Assembly: GCA_945864585.1 (NCBI GenBank)
Contig: CAMBCF010000007.1
Span: 1-64,000, forward strand
Direction: 5' to 3'
Source: Bordetella parapertussis
Lineage (GTDB): Bacteria; Pseudomonadota; Gammaproteobacteria; Burkholderiales; SG8-41
DNA: 64,000 nt
The notes below the pieces were generated by a model. It was not told where the DNA came from and did no database searches. It saw only the letters and a program-made list of their open reading frames with translations. Each line of letters begins with the position of its first letter. Within the stretch, counting starts at the first letter, position 1. This document shows positions 24,912-39,325 of the stretch, in pieces. A program made the translations under genes and the position numbers.

Positions 24912-26180
24912 CTACGCCAGAGAATCTGCCCAGATATTCCTTGCCCAGCCCCACGCGTATTGACCTTCAAGTTCGCTGGGAGCAGTGGACAAGCCGCCGG
25001 AACCCTTGACCACCAACATGGTTTTTTCCGCCGTGCTGTAGGCGTGGACCGACGCCACATGAATCACGTTCTTGGCGTCGACGAAGCTGTAGCAGGTGTT
25101 CATCATCATCGGCGCGGGATTGAGCGGCTGGCCCTTGATCAGGGCGATGACCGCCGCCGCGCATACTTTCGCATGCTGATTCGCCATGCTGGCCGATTTG
25201 GGCATGGCTGCTGCCGATAACGTGGCGTCCCCCAGCACATGCACGCCTTTGACTGCCGTGGATTCGCAGCTCAGCCAGTCCACGCCGCACCAGCGGTTGT
25301 TGGCGGTGATTAAGCCCGCCTGCTGCGCAATGTCGCCCGCGCGCTGCGGCGGCACCACGTTAAGCACATCGCCTTTGACATCGCCGAAAAACAGCTTGAT
25401 GGTCATGCCTTTCACATCGACATCGGCAATTTCGCTGTTGGGGCGGTAGTCGATCATGCCCTTGTAGAGATTGTTCCACGCCGCTTTGAACAGGCCCGCC
25501 TTCGACACCACATCCGGATTGCTGTCGAGCACGATGATTTTGGATTTCGGTTTGGCGCGCGTGAAATAATCCGCCACCTGACAGATACGCTCATACGGCC
25601 CCGGCGGGCAGCGATACGGCGCCAGCGGAATATGAAACACAAACACACCGCCGTCGCGCATCGCTTCCAGTTGTTTGCGCAACGCCAGCGTTTGCGGCCC
25701 GGCCTTCCACGCGTGCAGCACCTGCGCTTGCGCAGCGGCGTTGTTCAGACCCGGTATCGTGTCGTAATTAAAATCCACGCCGGGCGACACAATCAATCGG
25801 TCATAGTTAAGCGTATTGCCGCCCGCCAGCCGCACGCTTTTCGCAACAGGATCGATCGCTACCGCGTTGTCGCGCACCACGTTAACGCCGCGATCGGCAA
25901 GCCCGCGATAATTGCGCGAAATTTCGTTGAGGGTGGTGTTGCCCGCCAGTACCAGATTACTCATCGGGCACGAGATGAATCCAGCTTCCCGTTCGACCAC
26001 GGTGACCTCGATATCCGGCGACCACATCTTCACGTATTTCGCCGCCGTGCCGCCGCCGATGCCGGCGCCGATCACCACCACGCGCCCGGCGCTGGCGCCG
26101 CCGGTGGTGGCGCACCCTGCCAGCGCCGTTACGCCCGCCGCTGCCGTCCATTGCATGAATTCACGTCTGGATAGAGTCAT
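24912..26180 (-). CDS. fccB: Sulfide dehydrogenase (flavocytochrome c) flavoprotein subunit
   Basis: Tat-like N-terminus SRREFMQWTAAAGVTALAGC; RVVVIGAGIGGGTAAKYVK; next to a cytochrome gene. Confidence 0.88.
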   Translation of the reverse strand: MTLSRREFMQWTAAAGVTALAGCATTGGASAGRVVVIGAGIGGGTAAKYVKMWSPDIEVTVVEREAGFISCPMSNLVLAGNTTLNEISRNYRGLADRGVNVVRDNAVAIDPVAKSVRLAGGNTLNYDRLIVSPGVDFNYDTIPGLNNAAAQAQVLHAWKAGPQTLALRKQLEAMRDGGVFVFHIPLAPYRCPPGPYERICQVADYFTRAKPKSKIIVLDSNPDVVSKAGLFKAAWNNLYKGMIDYRPNSEIADVDVKGMTIKLFFGDVKGDVLNVVPPQRAGDIAQQAGLITANNRWCGVDWLSCESTAVKGVHVLGDATLSAAAMPKSASMANQHAKVCAAAVIALIKGQPLNPAPMMMNTCYSFVDAKNVIHVASVHAYSTAEKTMLVVKGSGGLSTAPSELEGQYAWGWARNIWADSLA

Positions 26181-32430: not shown

Positions 32431-33597
32431 GTGAATACCCTATCCAACCGCAACCGCAACCGCAAGCGCGTCGTCGTCGGCATGTCCGGCGGCGTGGATT
32501 CGTCGGTAGCCGCGCTGCTGCTCAAACAGCAGGGCTACGACGTCGCCGGCCTGTTCATGAAAAACTGGGAAGACGACGACACCGATGATTACTGCTCGTC
32601 GCGCCAGGATCTGATTGATGCGGTGTCTGTCGCCGACAAAATCGGCATCGATATCGAGTCGGTGAATTTTTCCGCCGAATACAAGGCGCGCGTATTCAGC
32701 GAATTCCTCGCGGAATACAAGGCCGGGCGCACGCCGAATCCCGATGTGATGTGCAACGCCGAGATCAAGTTCAAGGCGTTTCTCGATCACGCCGTGGCGA
32801 TGGGCGCCGACTGTATTGCCACCGGGCACTACGCGCAGGTGCGCGAACGCGACGGACTGTTTCAACTGCTGCGCGCTGATGACGGCGCCAAAGATCAAAG
32901 TTATTTTTTATATCGGCTCAATCAGCAGCAATTGTCGAAGACGCTGTTCCCGCTGGGCAATCTCACCAAAATCGAGGTGCGCGACATCGCGCGCCGTGAA
33001 GGGCTGGCGACACACGATAAAAAGGATTCGACGGGTATCTGCTTCGTCGGCGAGCGCCCGTTTCGTGAGTTTCTGAATCGTTACATTCCGGCGAATCCCG
33101 GCGATATCTGCACGCCCGATGGCGCGCGCGTGGGACGTCACAGCGGTTTGATGTTTTATACGCTGGGGCAGCGCCAGGGGCTGGGCATTGGCGGGCGGCG
33201 TGAAAGCAACGGCGACGGCGACGCCTGGTATGTCGCCGAAAAAGACATGGCAAACAATCGCCTGGTGGTGGTGCAGGGGCACGATCATGCGCTGCTGTTC
33301 GCGGATCGCCTCACCGCAGTTAATCTGAATTGGATCAGCGGCGCCACCCCGCACTGCGGCTGGGTGTATGGCGCAAAAACGCGCTACCGCCAGAAAGACG
33401 CGCCCTGCGTCATCGCCTCGGCCACCCAACAAAGCTGTGCCATCGAATTCGCGGAACCGCAATGGGCAGTCACCCCCGGCCAGTCGGTGGTGGTGTACGA
33501 AAGCAATGTGTGTCTGGGCGGCGGCATCATCGAATCCACCGCCCAATCCGCCGCCGCCGCAGAGGCGATACGTCTGCGACAGGAATCCTGCCCATAA
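32431..33597 (+). CDS. mnmA: tRNA 2-thiouridine(34) synthase MnmA
   Basis: [49 protein letters not shown]. Confidence 0.96.
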
Positions 33598-33679
33598 CGT
33601 GGGCATTACGCCGCATCGTGCTTGACGCTATTTCCCTCGCGGGAGTAGTCTCCAAGGATTGTTCAACCGGAGAAATGCC

Positions 33680-34453
33680 ATGAACGCACCTGTCGAAAAA
33701 TTCATCCTCTTTCTGCAACCGGGGTGAAGTTCCTGCCTCAGAGCGAAAGAGTTTCTTTCGAAAAAGAAGATTGACCACATTGTCATTGATATTCTGAACG
33801 ATGCGGGTGGACGTGAAAAGCTGCTCGAACTTGGACTTCGTAGCGTACCGGTAGTAGCGAAGGGCAAAAAATACGTATTCGGCCAAAAGCTCGAAGATGT
33901 GGCGGAATTCGTCGGCCTCGAAGGCACCGGCCACACGCCGCTGCCGCCGGAGCAGTTGGTGAAAAAGTGGGTGATCGCGCTACGCGCGGCGCAACGCTAT
34001 GTGCGCCAGTTGCCCGATGACAAACTGCTGCAGGACGTGATTCCCAATCGTCCGCGGGCGATTCGCATCATGAGCCATCATATCTTCCGCATTTGCGAGG
34101 CGTTTCTCGACAGCACCATCAACGGCACTGATTACGCCGTAGGCCATGCCAACGTGCTGCCTGCGGAGGGCACCTGCATGACGGGCAACGACCTCGCGCA
34201 ATATGGTGAAGGTGTGATCCAGCGCCTTGAGCAGTGGTGGGCGGGCCTTGCGGATAAAACCCTGAGCGCCGAAATCGGCACGTACTACGGCAAGCAGCCG
34301 CTGCACGTGGTGTTTGAACGCTCAACCTGGCATTCGGCACAACACGCGCGCCAGTTGATACATGTGCTGGAACGCAACGGCATCGAGCCCAATCAGCGCC
34401 TCACCGCTGATGACCTCGCCGGATTGCCGATACCGGAGCGGCTGTTCGAGTAG
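33680..34453 (+). CDS. Selenoprotein: glutaredoxin-like domain (U-S-S-C) fused to DinB-like domain; in-frame UGA at 33725-33727 read as Sec
   Basis: ATG 33680 and stop 34453 in one frame (258 codons) except codon 16 TGA: MNAPVEKFILFLQPG[U]SSCLRAKEFLSKKKIDHIVIDILNDAGGREKLLELGLRSVPVVAKGKKYVFG...; ggag RBS; selA/selB/tRNA-Sec follow. ORF track reports only 33899-34453. Confidence 0.88.
33744..33760 (+). promoter_or_regulatory. Candidate bacterial SECIS hairpin
   Basis: cgaaaga-gtt-tctttcg, perfect 7-bp stem with GU-containing loop about 24 nt downstream of the UGA. Confidence 0.6.
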
Positions 34454-34635: not shown

Positions 34636-36048
34636 ATGGTGAATCCGGACCCAGCCGCGCGTCGCGCGCTACCTTCGGTTAACCGGCTGCTGAGCAGCAG
34701 CGCCGTTGGCGCGCTCGTTTCTCGTTACGGCCGCGCGCTCACCACCGACACCATCCGCGAGTTGTTGCAGGCACAGCGCGAAAAACTCGCGCACAACGCC
34801 GGCGCGTTTGAATTCGACGAGCCGCGTTTCATTGCGCTCTGCAACAGCGAACTCGCACACCAGACGCAGCCGTCGCTGCGCCCGGTATTCAATCTCACCG
34901 GCACCGTGCTGCATACCAATCTCGGCCGCGCGCTGATGCCGCAGTCGGTAGCCGACGCAGTAATGACCGCGATGACGCGCCCGGTTAATCTCGAGTTTGA
35001 TCTCGGCGGCGGTGTGCGCGGCGAACGCGACACGCATGTCGAAAAATGGATCACCAAACTCGCCGGCGGCGACGGCGCGGTGGTGGTCAACAACAATGCC
35101 GCGGCGGTGTACCTGGTATTGAACACCCTGGGCGCAAAAAGGGAAGTCATCGTGTCGCGCGGCGAGTTGATCGAAATCGGAGGCGCGTTCCGCATCCCCG
35201 ACATCATGAAACGCGCAGGCGTGAAACTGGTGGAGGTGGGCACCACCAACCGCACGCACCTGAAAGATTTCGCCGAAGCCATCACCCCGCGCACCGCCGC
35301 CATCATGAAGGTGCATACCAGCAATTACGCGGTGCAGGGTTTCACCGCCAGCGCGCCCGAACCTGAACTCGCAGCACTGGCGCACCAACACGGCATCCCC
35401 TACATCGTCGATCTCGGCAGCGGCATGCTGGTGAATCTCGAAGACTACGGCCTGCCGCACGAGCCCACGCCGCGCGAGGCGCTGGCGAACGGCGCGGATC
35501 TGGTCACGTTCAGCGGCGACAAATTGCTGGGCGGCCCGCAAGCCGGATTAATTGTCGGTAAAAAAGAACTGATCGCGCGCATCCGCAAAAATCCGATGAA
35601 GCGCGCATTGCGCGTGGACAAGATGACGCTCGCCGCGCTCGATGCACTGCTGCGCCTTTACACCAACCCGGACAAGCTACGTGAGGAAGTGACCACCCTC
35701 CGCCTGCTCACACGCACGCGCGCAGATATCCGCGTGCAGGCTGAGCGCGTGCTGCCTCACCTACACAGTGCGCTCACAGGCAAAGCCGAAGCATCGATCA
35801 TCGATACCGGCAGCCAGATCGGTAGCGGCTCATTGCCGGTGGATTCGTTGCCGAGCGCCGGCATCGCGATCACTCCAGTCGGCAAAAGCAAAAGCTCCTT
35901 CGCCGACAAACTATCGCTCGCGTTTCGCGCACTGCCGGTGCCGGTAATCGGCCACATCAAGGACGGCGCGTTCGTGCTTGATCTGCGTTGCCTTGATCAC
36001 GAGGATGAATTTGTGGCGCAGCTGGGTGGACTAAAGATCAACAACTGA
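34636..36048 (+). CDS. selA: L-seryl-tRNA(Sec) selenium transferase
   Basis: FNLTGTVLHTNLGRALMP; DLVTFSGDKLLGGPQAGLIVGKK. Confidence 0.96.
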   Translation: MVNPDPAARRALPSVNRLLSSSAVGALVSRYGRALTTDTIRELLQAQREKLAHNAGAFEFDEPRFIALCNSELAHQTQPSLRPVFNLTGTVLHTNLGRALMPQSVADAVMTAMTRPVNLEFDLGGGVRGERDTHVEKWITKLAGGDGAVVVNNNAAAVYLVLNTLGAKREVIVSRGELIEIGGAFRIPDIMKRAGVKLVEVGTTNRTHLKDFAEAITPRTAAIMKVHTSNYAVQGFTASAPEPELAALAHQHGIPYIVDLGSGMLVNLEDYGLPHEPTPREALANGADLVTFSGDKLLGGPQAGLIVGKKELIARIRKNPMKRALRVDKMTLAALDALLRLYTNPDKLREEVTTLRLLTRTRADIRVQAERVLPHLHSALTGKAEASIIDTGSQIGSGSLPVDSLPSAGIAITPVGKSKSSFADKLSLAFRALPVPVIGHIKDGAFVLDLRCLDHEDEFVAQLGGLKINN

Positions 36049-36182
36049 ACCGCAGAGGCGCAGAAACGCAGAGATCACGCAGAGAACAACAAACCAATAA
36101 TGCATATAACTTCTGTTATTAATGAATATTTCTCTTTTTGAATTTCTCTGCGTTTCCTCTGCGCCTCTGCGCCTCTGCGGTT
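36048..36182. repeat. Intergenic inverted repeat of degenerate cgcagag units
   Basis: Arms 36048-36085 and 36145-36182 (38 nt each) are near-complementary. Confidence 0.85.
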
Positions 36183-36192
36183 GGGGGTACCA

Positions 36193-38217
36193 GTGATAGT
36201 AGCCACCGCCGGCCACATCGATCACGGCAAGACGCTGCTGGTGAAAACCCTCACCGGCGTGGACACCGATCGCCTGCCCGAAGAAAAGGCGCGCGGCATT
36301 TCGATAGACCTTGGCTTTGCCTACCTGCCGCTGCCCAACGGCGAGTTGATCGGTTTTGTCGATGTGCCCGGCCACGAACGCTTTGTGCGCAATATGCTTG
36401 CCGGCGTGTGTGGCATAGACTATGCGCTGCTGGTGGTCGCGGCGGACGACGGCGTGATGCCACAGACGCTGGAACATCTGAACATTCTGAACCTGCTGCA
36501 CATCCGGCGCGGCGCGGTAGTCGTCACCAAGATCGATCGCGTGGATGAGGCGCGTGTCAAACAAGTGGGCGAAAACGTTACCGCACTGTTGTCGGCGACA
36601 CAGCTTTCCGGCGCAAAAGTAATGCCGGTCTCCGCGGTCAGCGGCGCGGGTATGATCGAACTGCGCGAGATGCTCAAACGCGAGGCCACGGCATCAGCGT
36701 CGCGCACCAGCGCCGATCAGCATTTTCGTTATGCCGCCGACCGCGCGTTCACAGTGGCGGGCAGTGGCACAGTGGTCACCGGAACGGTGTTTAATGGCAA
36801 AGTCGTGCCCGGTGACAAGCTGGTGATTTCCCCTGCCGGCAATGAGGTGCGCGTGCGCGGCATCCAGATTCAGGGCAAGGCCGCGCCGCAGGCGCTCGCC
36901 GGTCAGCGCTGCGCATTGAACCTTACCGGCACCGACCTCGATGCGGTGAGCCGCGGCGATTGGGTGCTGGCGCCGGCGATACACCACCCCACGCAGCGTA
37001 TTGCCGGGCGTGTCAGCGTGCTGGCGAGCGAAACGCAGGCACTTAAGCACTGGACGCCTGTGCATTTGCACCTCGCCACGGCCGATGTCACGGCGCGTGT
37101 GGCGATACGCCGCGGCGCAAGCATCGCGCCCGGCGCATCGGCGATGGTGCAGTTGCAACTCGACAAGCCGGTGGGCGCGCTGCACGGCGACCGCTTTATC
37201 CTGCGCGATCAGTCCGCCACGCGCACCCTCGGCGGCGGCGTGGTGCTTGACCCGTTTGTGACTACGCAGCGACGCAGCAAAGAAGCGCGCGAGGCCGAGT
37301 TGGCGGCACTGGAGCAGGCCACGCCGCAAGCCACGCTCGAGGCGTTGATTAAACTCGGCAAGCCGGTTGATCTGCAGCGCTTTGAAACGCTGTTTAACAT
37401 GCCGTCGGCGCAAGCCGCCGTGCTCTACGAAAAATTAGGCCTCGCGCAGTTGGGTAAAGACACCCGCGTCGCCATCCCGCGCGCGCGCAGCGCGCAGATC
37501 ACGGATGCCATAGTGCCGCACTTGCAGGCGTTTCACCAGGCGCAACCGCAGGCTGCCGGCGAAGAAACCGAAACGCTGCGCAAGCAACTCGCACCCGAGT
37601 TATCGGCAGACGCTTTCGGCGCCATCCTGCGCACGCTGGCCGACGCGCGCAAAATCGAAACCAGCGGCTCCATAGCGCGCCTGCCCGCGCACAGCACTAC
37701 CGCCAACAGCGCTGACGAAACGATGTGGCAAATGGTCAAACCCGCGCTTGACGCCGCGGGATTCAACGCACCGCAGATCAAGGACCTGGCGCTGCAACTG
37801 AAACTGAAGGAAGCCCTGGTCAAAGATTTCCTTTATCGTAAAGCCAAGAGCAATGAAATTTATCGCGTGACGCCGGATCGCTTCTACACCAAAGGCACGC
37901 TGGCGAAACTCGCCGCCACCGCGCAAGCCACCGCGCAGGCGCAGCCCACCGGCATCTTCACTGCCGCGCAGTACCGCGACTGGACTGGTGTCGGCCGCGG
38001 CCTTGCCATCGAAATACTTGAATTCATGGATACGCTGGGTGTTACGCAACGCATCGGCGACACGCGCAAGATGCGCAAGGATTTTGTGCCCATCCTCGGC
38101 GCGGCGGAAATTCCCGCCAAGCCGCTGCTCGCAGCGCCACGGCCTGCGCAACTCGCGCCCTCGTCCACCAAGCCGACCCATCAACAACGCCGCCCCAACA
38201 ACTCTTACCGCAGATAA
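36193..38217 (+). CDS. selB: Selenocysteine-specific elongation factor SelB
   Basis: VIVATAGHIDHGKTLLVKTLTGVDTDRLPEEKARGISIDLGFAY; GTG start; C-terminal winged helices. Confidence 0.96.
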   Translation: MIVATAGHIDHGKTLLVKTLTGVDTDRLPEEKARGISIDLGFAYLPLPNGELIGFVDVPGHERFVRNMLAGVCGIDYALLVVAADDGVMPQTLEHLNILNLLHIRRGAVVVTKIDRVDEARVKQVGENVTALLSATQLSGAKVMPVSAVSGAGMIELREMLKREATASASRTSADQHFRYAADRAFTVAGSGTVVTGTVFNGKVVPGDKLVISPAGNEVRVRGIQIQGKAAPQALAGQRCALNLTGTDLDAVSRGDWVLAPAIHHPTQRIAGRVSVLASETQALKHWTPVHLHLATADVTARVAIRRGASIAPGASAMVQLQLDKPVGALHGDRFILRDQSATRTLGGGVVLDPFVTTQRRSKEAREAELAALEQATPQATLEALIKLGKPVDLQRFETLFNMPSAQAAVLYEKLGLAQLGKDTRVAIPRARSAQITDAIVPHLQAFHQAQPQAAGEETETLRKQLAPELSADAFGAILRTLADARKIETSGSIARLPAHSTTANSADETMWQMVKPALDAAGFNAPQIKDLALQLKLKEALVKDFLYRKAKSNEIYRVTPDRFYTKGTLAKLAATAQATAQAQPTGIFTAAQYRDWTGVGRGLAIEILEFMDTLGVTQRIGDTRKMRKDFVPILGAAEIPAKPLLAAPRPAQLAPSSTKPTHQQRRPNNSYRR

Positions 38218-38240: not shown

Positions 38241-39161
38241 ATGGCAGCAACCTATGATGTTATCGTGATCGGCGAAGGTGTAGCCGGATTGACTGCAGCG
38301 GGCGAGCTTGCCCGTGCAGGCCTCAAAGTTGCGACGCTCGAAGCGCAACTCTTTGGCGGGCTGGTGCTCAACATCAATGAACTCGATCCACCGCCCGAGG
38401 GTAGCGAAGGCGGCAGCGGCAACAGCGGCGCGGAATACGCCTCCACACTGATGCAGGCCAATGCCGACGCGGGCGTGACCAGCATCTCTGAACCCGTTAG
38501 CCGTATTGAAATCACAGGCGACATCATAAAAGTCGTTACCGAAAGCGGCGCCTACACGGCAACGCAGGTCGTGGTCGCCTCCGGCGCGCGCCTGAAAAAA
38601 CTCGGCGCGCCCGGTGAAGCCGCGTTCGAGGGCAAAGGCGTTTCGCAGTGCGCGGATTGCGATGGCCCGATGTACCAGAACGAATCCGTGGTGGTGGTCG
38701 GCGGTGGCGATTCGGCGCTGCAGGAGGCCCTCGTGCTGTCGCACTACTGCAAAGAAGTGCGCATTGTGCATCGTGGCAGCGCGTTCGGCGCGCACGACTT
38801 CTTCAAGCATGCCGTGAATGACCAACCCAAAATCGTCAAAATCTTTAACGCGCAAGTCACCGCTGTCAGCGGCGGACAAATGGTTGAAAAAGTCTCAATC
38901 AGGCACGCCGATGGGCGCAGCGAAGACCTCGCGTGCGCCGGCGTGTTTGCCTACGTCGGACTGGAACCCAACTCGGAATATCTGCCGCATGCGGTGCAGC
39001 GTGACGCCAAAGGCTTTGTCGTCACTAACGAGCATTTTGAAACCGCAATGGCGGGCGTGTGGGCGGTAGGGGCGGTGCGCAGCGGCTGTGGCGGCGAACT
39101 GGATGATGCGATCGAGGATGCCCGAAAAGCGGCAGCCGGTATTCGCGCGCGGCTCGCATGA
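38241..39161 (+). CDS. Thioredoxin-reductase-like FAD/NAD(P) oxidoreductase
   Basis: YDVIVIGEGVAGLTAAGELARAGLKVATLE; redox motif QCADCDGPMY. Confidence 0.88.
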   Translation: MAATYDVIVIGEGVAGLTAAGELARAGLKVATLEAQLFGGLVLNINELDPPPEGSEGGSGNSGAEYASTLMQANADAGVTSISEPVSRIEITGDIIKVVTESGAYTATQVVVASGARLKKLGAPGEAAFEGKGVSQCADCDGPMYQNESVVVVGGGDSALQEALVLSHYCKEVRIVHRGSAFGAHDFFKHAVNDQPKIVKIFNAQVTAVSGGQMVEKVSIRHADGRSEDLACAGVFAYVGLEPNSEYLPHAVQRDAKGFVVTNEHFETAMAGVWAVGAVRSGCGGELDDAIEDARKAAAGIRARLA

Positions 39162-39230: not shown

Positions 39231-39325
39231 GGAAGGGAATCGCTCCCGGTGGGGCGGCCGGACTTCAAACCCGGTAGGGGCTGTTAACAGTTCTACGTGG
39301 GTTCGACTCCCACTCTCTTCCGCCA
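39231..39325 (+). tRNA. selC: tRNA-Sec (anticodon UCA), CCA encoded
   Basis: ggaagggaatcgctcccggtggggcggccggactTCAaacccgg...ggttcgactcccactctcttccgcca; 8-bp acceptor, long variable arm, closely resembles E. coli selC. Confidence 0.96.

Follow-up and report, generated by a model that had tools for sequence, protein, structure and literature searches.

A gene in which a glutaredoxin-like domain is fused to a DinB-type domain very likely encodes a selenoprotein, with selenocysteine (Sec) at codon 16; this is inferred from its sequence and its homologues, without expression, protein or activity data. The gene (grx-dinB) lies in the window, by which we mean the whole 64,000-nucleotide stretch of DNA that was analysed. 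Its features and neighbours are as follows.

32431–33597, + strand: mnmA (tRNA 2-thiouridine synthase), the conserved upstream neighbour
33669–33672, + strand: GGAG, Shine-Dalgarno-like, 7 nt 5′ of the ATG, read directly
33680–34453, + strand: putative Sec-containing glutaredoxin-DinB fusion gene, 257 amino acids with TGA read as Sec
33707–33877, + strand: glutaredoxin/NrdH-like domain, residues 10–66 (profile and model)
33725–33727, + strand: in-frame UGA, very likely the Sec codon, at codon 16 (U-S-S-C)
33744–33760, + strand: SECIS-like hairpin CGAAAGA-GUU-UCUUUCG, with a 7-bp stem and a GUU loop
33947–34375, + strand: DinB-type four-helix domain, about residues 90–232, with invariant His134, His218 and His222
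34636–36048, + strand: selA (ATG start inferred; the ORF list starts at TTG 34609)
36181–38217, + strand: selB
38241–39161, + strand: thioredoxin-reductase-like (TrxR-like) flavoprotein with a CADC active site, a possible reductant
39231–39325, + strand: tRNA-Sec, UCA anticodon (Rfam, 74.5 bits)

The TGA of codon 16 is the sole stop inside the 257-codon frame 33680–34450, which ends with a TAG extending to 34453. When it is read as Sec the active-site motif is FILFLQPG-U-SSC, with the UGA at the glutaredoxin active-site position. Homologues were sought in 60 relatives and in GTDB genome contigs, and most close relatives carry one, nearly all with exactly one TGA. The UGA column of a first set of 79 homologues contained TGA in 70 and Cys in 9; after the addition of further loci (13 Cys in all) and of six Cys copies on plasmids, the same column held TGA in 85 of 104 sequences. 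The other 19 all have Cys. This distribution excludes chance, and the criterion for a selenoprotein, an in-frame UGA aligned with Cys of homologues, is met. Close relatives differ mostly at third codon positions, before the UGA as well as after it, so the 5′ part cannot be untranslated. The preliminary description had reported a TGA at codon 16, placing U-S-S-C where a CxxC belongs, as the only interruption of a selenoprotein gene missed by ORF calling. These claims held when the frame was read and the homologues, with Sec or Cys at exactly this column, were aligned.

Three changes between Sec and Cys suffice on a tree of 73 representatives, a quick tree whose deep branches are uncertain. Many genomes have a second paralogue elsewhere, about 48–57% identical to that of the window, without a constant neighbour and usually away from sel genes. 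The family is carried by dozens of betaproteobacteria, nearly always alongside other selenium machinery. The plasmid Cys homologues are annotated as 'glutaredoxin domain-containing protein' or 'DinB family protein', and automatic annotation is apt to cut the gene to a DinB fragment or to overlook the redox domain. Several public MAGs titled 'Bordetella parapertussis' (L031, L032, L049, L055, L061, L070, L079) have loci that fall near uncultured betaproteobacteria close to the window's genus, and their species label is probably wrong.

Shortly after the UGA, each of the 70 Sec genes in the first set has the same codons, AAA GAG TTT CTT TCG (Lys-Glu-Phe-Leu-Ser). Normalised codon entropy was 0 in these five hairpin columns, whereas 46 other conserved degenerate columns averaged 0.74 and none had a value below 0.42, which marks an extreme synonymous constraint. 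The loop G is the 24th nucleotide after the UGA. Bacterial SECIS elements are generally understood to place this G about 16–37 nt past the UGA, and the hairpin meets that criterion. Some loci added later have AAG in place of AAA, a change that would preserve a G-U pair, as judged from sequence alone, and the hairpin codons diverge more in a distant copy (L114). Cys genes mostly have other codons there (AAG, TTC, CTG), and most lack the hairpin. One Cys gene, on plasmid pNK82 of Caballeronia sp. NK8 (L139), retains AAA GAG TTT CTT, possibly a relic of a SECIS lost after a Sec-to-Cys change; Variovorax sp. SRS16 is another strain with a Cys form. The signal from minimum-free-energy shuffling was no more than modest (mean z −1.8 for Sec genes and −0.7 for Cys genes); the strong test is codon invariance. 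By inference from sequence, then, the hairpin is very likely a bacterial SECIS.

Residues 10–66 passed the Pfam Glutaredoxin profile PF00462 (E 1.3e-10; 41.7 bits, cut-off 22.9), and the hallmarks of that family, UxxC/CxxC (U/C16, C19) and the conserved P57, are present and invariant. The best glutaredoxin profile matches include NrdH-type redoxins, and the domain is closer to NrdH/YruB types. Residues 101–226 scored 22.8 bits with DinB_2 (E 1.4e-4), about 2 bits below the cut-off of 24.8; 53 of 58 family members matched this profile. An AlphaFold model built with 58 alignment rows (pLDDT 95.1, pTM 0.91) shows a four-helix bundle C-terminal to a thioredoxin-type fold. Matches to PDB folds were domain-wise only: the glutaredoxin half resembled the small redoxin 3zit (TM 0.9), and the DinB half resembled DinB/YfiT DR0053 (6iz2; TM 0.85 by target), YfiT/BstA and mycothiol-dependent maleylpyruvate isomerase. 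The architecture that had been proposed earlier is thus confirmed by the profiles and, as a prediction, by the confident structure model. GST membership was rejected, as whole-protein fold matches were weak (TM about 0.3–0.4, rmsd 9–18), though the layout is reminiscent.

Fifteen positions are invariant over the 58 rows: G15, U/C16, S18, C19, P57, R124, H134, W186, E213, R214, W217, H218, Q221, H222 and R224. The criterion for the DinB/S-transferase-like (STL) superfamily, a four-helix bundle with three conserved His, is met. H134, H218 and H222 are likely to form the DinB metal site, an inference from conservation and the model.

The preliminary description had placed selA, selB and tRNA-Sec immediately downstream, which proved correct; the TrxR-like gene between selB and tRNA-Sec had gone unmentioned. 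With selA, selB, selC and selD the Sec machinery is complete, so that this criterion too is met. Relatives share the order mnmA–grx-dinB–selA–selB–TrxR-like–tRNA-Sec, at times with further genes interposed, and in some an opposite-strand GST lies between mnmA and grx-dinB. The TrxR-like gene is kept in the sel cluster of relatives and is separate from the ordinary TrxB gene of the genome, which is on another contig. Its product retains the motif CADCDG in about 24 loci and lacks HRRxxxR. The latter is generally taken as the NADPH motif of TrxR, and because it is missing the electron donor of the flavoenzyme is uncertain.

Two side observations concern neighbouring genes. In one family (L103, L128, L129, L131) the start of Grx-DinB shares 4 nt with a 132-amino-acid ORF that looks RidA-like by eye, which suggests translational coupling. 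Elsewhere in the window (24912–26180, − strand) an FAD oxidoreductase resembling type III sulfide:quinone reductase adjoins a small cytochrome-like ORF; it scored 106 bits with NF049943, far below the cut-off of 525.

The source organism is a selenoprotein-rich betaproteobacterium. Its SelD and FdhA have in-frame UGA codons (GGG-U-GCK and RI-U-HAP), and a GrdB/PrdB-like protein (L166, G000:C5 near 45471) has an in-frame TGA in V-U-PNYTC. The UGSC family (NF041046) matched at nine places in the source genome with E 1e-20 or better and at 18 in total with E <1e-7, with one TGA each; 11 clear U-G-S/T-C sites emerged when 16 fetched UGSC regions were scanned strictly for the motif. This expansion is spread over G000 contigs C62, C10, C86, C89, C176, C104, C70, C184, C39, C80 and others (loci L150–L165). 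Nearly all of the UGSC genes adjoin, or are fused to, a gene for a 340-amino-acid 'GWTDGLPVVP' (GWT) protein, which could be assigned to none of the families in Pfam and NCBIfam, not even UGSC. AlphaFold, given the single sequence of a fused UGSC protein, returned an uninformative model (pLDDT 35). Homology of UGSC to GrdB/PrdB, considered on account of a similar layout around the Sec, was not supported (hhalign probability <1%).

Sec-form Grx-DinB was found in 22 of 300 Burkholderiales genomes. tRNA-Sec was present in 21 of these 22 and in 67 of the 278 others (Fisher p 1.7e-11), and UGSC in all 22 and in 12 of the 278 (p 4e-25; p 5e-13 within Sec decoders); none of these values is corrected for relatedness. 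Nine of the 34 UGSC genomes have no Grx-DinB, and the genomes with only Cys forms are split, three having tRNA-Sec and UGSC and three neither. At two loci (L047, L048) a UGSC-GWT pair lies directly downstream of grx-dinB, and at another (L100) UGSC, two GWT genes and grx-dinB are co-directional, with 42 nt preceding grx-dinB. This tight link offers a starting point for working out what UGSC, an abundant and unexplained selenoprotein family, does.

We propose the following mechanism. SelB and tRNA-Sec, guided by the hairpin after UGA-16, would insert Sec into the N-terminal glutaredoxin/NrdH-like domain. Sec16 of U-S-S-C would attack a disulfide, a selenenylsulfide or another oxidised group, and Cys19 would resolve the product. 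The Sec domain would be re-reduced, most likely by the TrxR-like flavoenzyme of the sel cluster, and would support a reaction at the DinB metal site by giving electrons or by resolving a mixed selenenyl-sulfide; at that site the three intact His would hold a metal binding a thiol or electrophile. Grx-DinB may also serve the co-occurring UGSC selenoenzymes, a tandem use of selenocysteine. Sequence and model firmly support the UGA conserved as Sec or Cys, the SECIS, the machinery, the (modelled) folds and the His triad; the rest of the mechanism is inferred.

Confidence differs between the parts. A thiol-redox function of the glutaredoxin domain is likely, again by inference, and any dependence of it on glutathione is hypothetical. 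The TrxR-like flavoenzyme is as likely as not to be its redox partner, and service to UGSC enzymes is a tentative idea against which the balance tips. On the whole we lean, by a small margin, towards a Sec thiol-redox domain that is reduced by the flavoenzyme and serves a metal- or thiol-binding DinB domain and perhaps UGSC, a function that is inferred. In its favour are the Sec/Cys pairs, the SECIS codons, synteny, the co-occurrence with tRNA-Sec and UGSC, the in-frame UGA of SelD, FdhA and the PrdB-like protein, the structure model with its fold matches, the NrdH-type matches and the retention of CADCDG. Against it stand the flavoenzyme without HRRxxxR, the usual distance of the second paralogue from sel genes, the unidentified substrate, the varied catabolic neighbourhoods of plasmid Cys forms, and the UGSC genomes without Grx-DinB. 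A bolder reading makes Grx-DinB and the sel-cluster flavoenzyme a relay that carries electrons from selenium to selenium and is dedicated to UGSC enzymes; we offer it with doubt, as it falls clearly short of an even chance. If it is true, the UGSC/GWT proteins multiplied in these Burkholderiales would represent an undescribed selenium-dependent catabolic system.

The alternative that survives best, and remains possible, is a thiol S-transferase or isomerase modelled on the DinB/STL bacillithiol transferases, in which the DinB metal site would activate glutathione against an electrophile, Sec-glutaredoxin would free or recycle the thiol, and the link to UGSC would reflect merely shared selenium use. 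It is supported by the three invariant His, whose H...HxxxH arrangement follows the description of BstA-H, by the similarity in fold to YfiT/BstA and to mycothiol-dependent maleylpyruvate isomerase, by a GST gene adjoining grx-dinB in eight loci, and by the location of Cys forms among catabolic genes. However, no glutathione site has been shown, TrxR is the usual reductant of NrdH-type relatives, and this alternative does not predict that the Sec form tracks UGSC genomes. A GshA-like neighbour near three second copies was seen by eye and, for want of profile confirmation, is given no weight.

It is very unlikely that the UGA is a true stop, with only a short DinB protein made from GTG 33899 and the upstream frame a relic. 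The DinB portion by itself does form an open 184-codon ORF, but dozens of genomes conserve a coding frame that runs across the UGA, the others having Cys there, synonymous change prevails on both sides, and the hairpin is kept at the synonymous level. A pseudogene or single-base assembly error, which the fragmentation of the source assembly (234 contigs) might suggest, is all but excluded by 85 distinct sequences that carry the identical UGA and stem from numerous separate assemblies. Sequencing error and an internal start alone, which the preliminary description had named as possible refutations, can therefore be ruled out on account of the Sec/Cys column, the conserved upstream region, the constrained hairpin and the independent assemblies.

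The family is apparently undescribed. An inventory published in 2026 (PMC13188914), which covers 119 prokaryotic selenoprotein families, lists glutaredoxin and several glutaredoxin-like types and no DinB fusion, deep-Sep (PMC12013277) does not name Grx-DinB, and a full-text literature search for selenoprotein with DinB returned only unrelated papers. The earlier suggestion that the architecture may be undescribed is thus supported within the literature and family libraries examined. The remaining caveat is that the loosely defined 'Grx-like' Sec families of older GOS/Sargasso metagenomic catalogues (PMC2398784, PMC1088965) might include fragments of it. A 2006 survey recorded formate dehydrogenase as the only selenoprotein in this bacterial group (PMC1794560). 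Grx-DinB would add a widespread, apparently uncatalogued family, with a domain pairing absent from lists of known selenoproteins.

Among known systems, the Sec-containing glutaredoxins (PF00462, UxxC, for example that of Clostridium) likewise use Sec as the attacking residue in a glutaredoxin fold. According to Kim et al. (2011, as cited by PMC9312934), the Clostridium protein reduces an MsrA that is itself a selenoprotein, a precedent for a Sec-glutaredoxin acting on a selenoprotein. Unlike the window fusion, the Sec glutaredoxin in Table 1 of PMC13188914 is catalogued without mention of a DinB domain. The UXX-star glutaredoxin-like selenoproteins (NF041114, NF041211, NF041212, NF045501) also have a distant glutaredoxin-like domain with Sec, whereas the window protein is fused to DinB and keeps UxxC. 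Identity with UXX-star was rejected, as scores of 28.4 (the best), 18.2 and 18.3 bits fell far below NCBIfam cut-offs of 66, 100 and 72, and identity with the hypothetical protein GOS_C (NF045500) was rejected as well, since its profile gave no match to the protein even when E values as high as 10 were allowed. No NCBIfam model reached its cut-off for this protein.

The DinB/YfiT/STL thiol transferases (BstA-H, mycothiol-dependent maleylpyruvate isomerase) have the same four-helix bundle and three-His site, and metal-dependent thiol transfer by DinB/STL enzymes has been described (PMC5815605, PMC10950700). In the eight STL bacillithiol transferases of B. subtilis nothing but three His is invariant (PMC5815605), and H134, H218 and H222 match these in layout, without superposition. 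Described members of this group are not known to contain Sec or a fused glutaredoxin domain. The UGSC family selenoproteins (PF24696, NF041046) share genomes with Grx-DinB and are sometimes adjacent to it; they are unrelated in sequence, and UGSC is presumed to be a partner of Grx-DinB rather than a relative.
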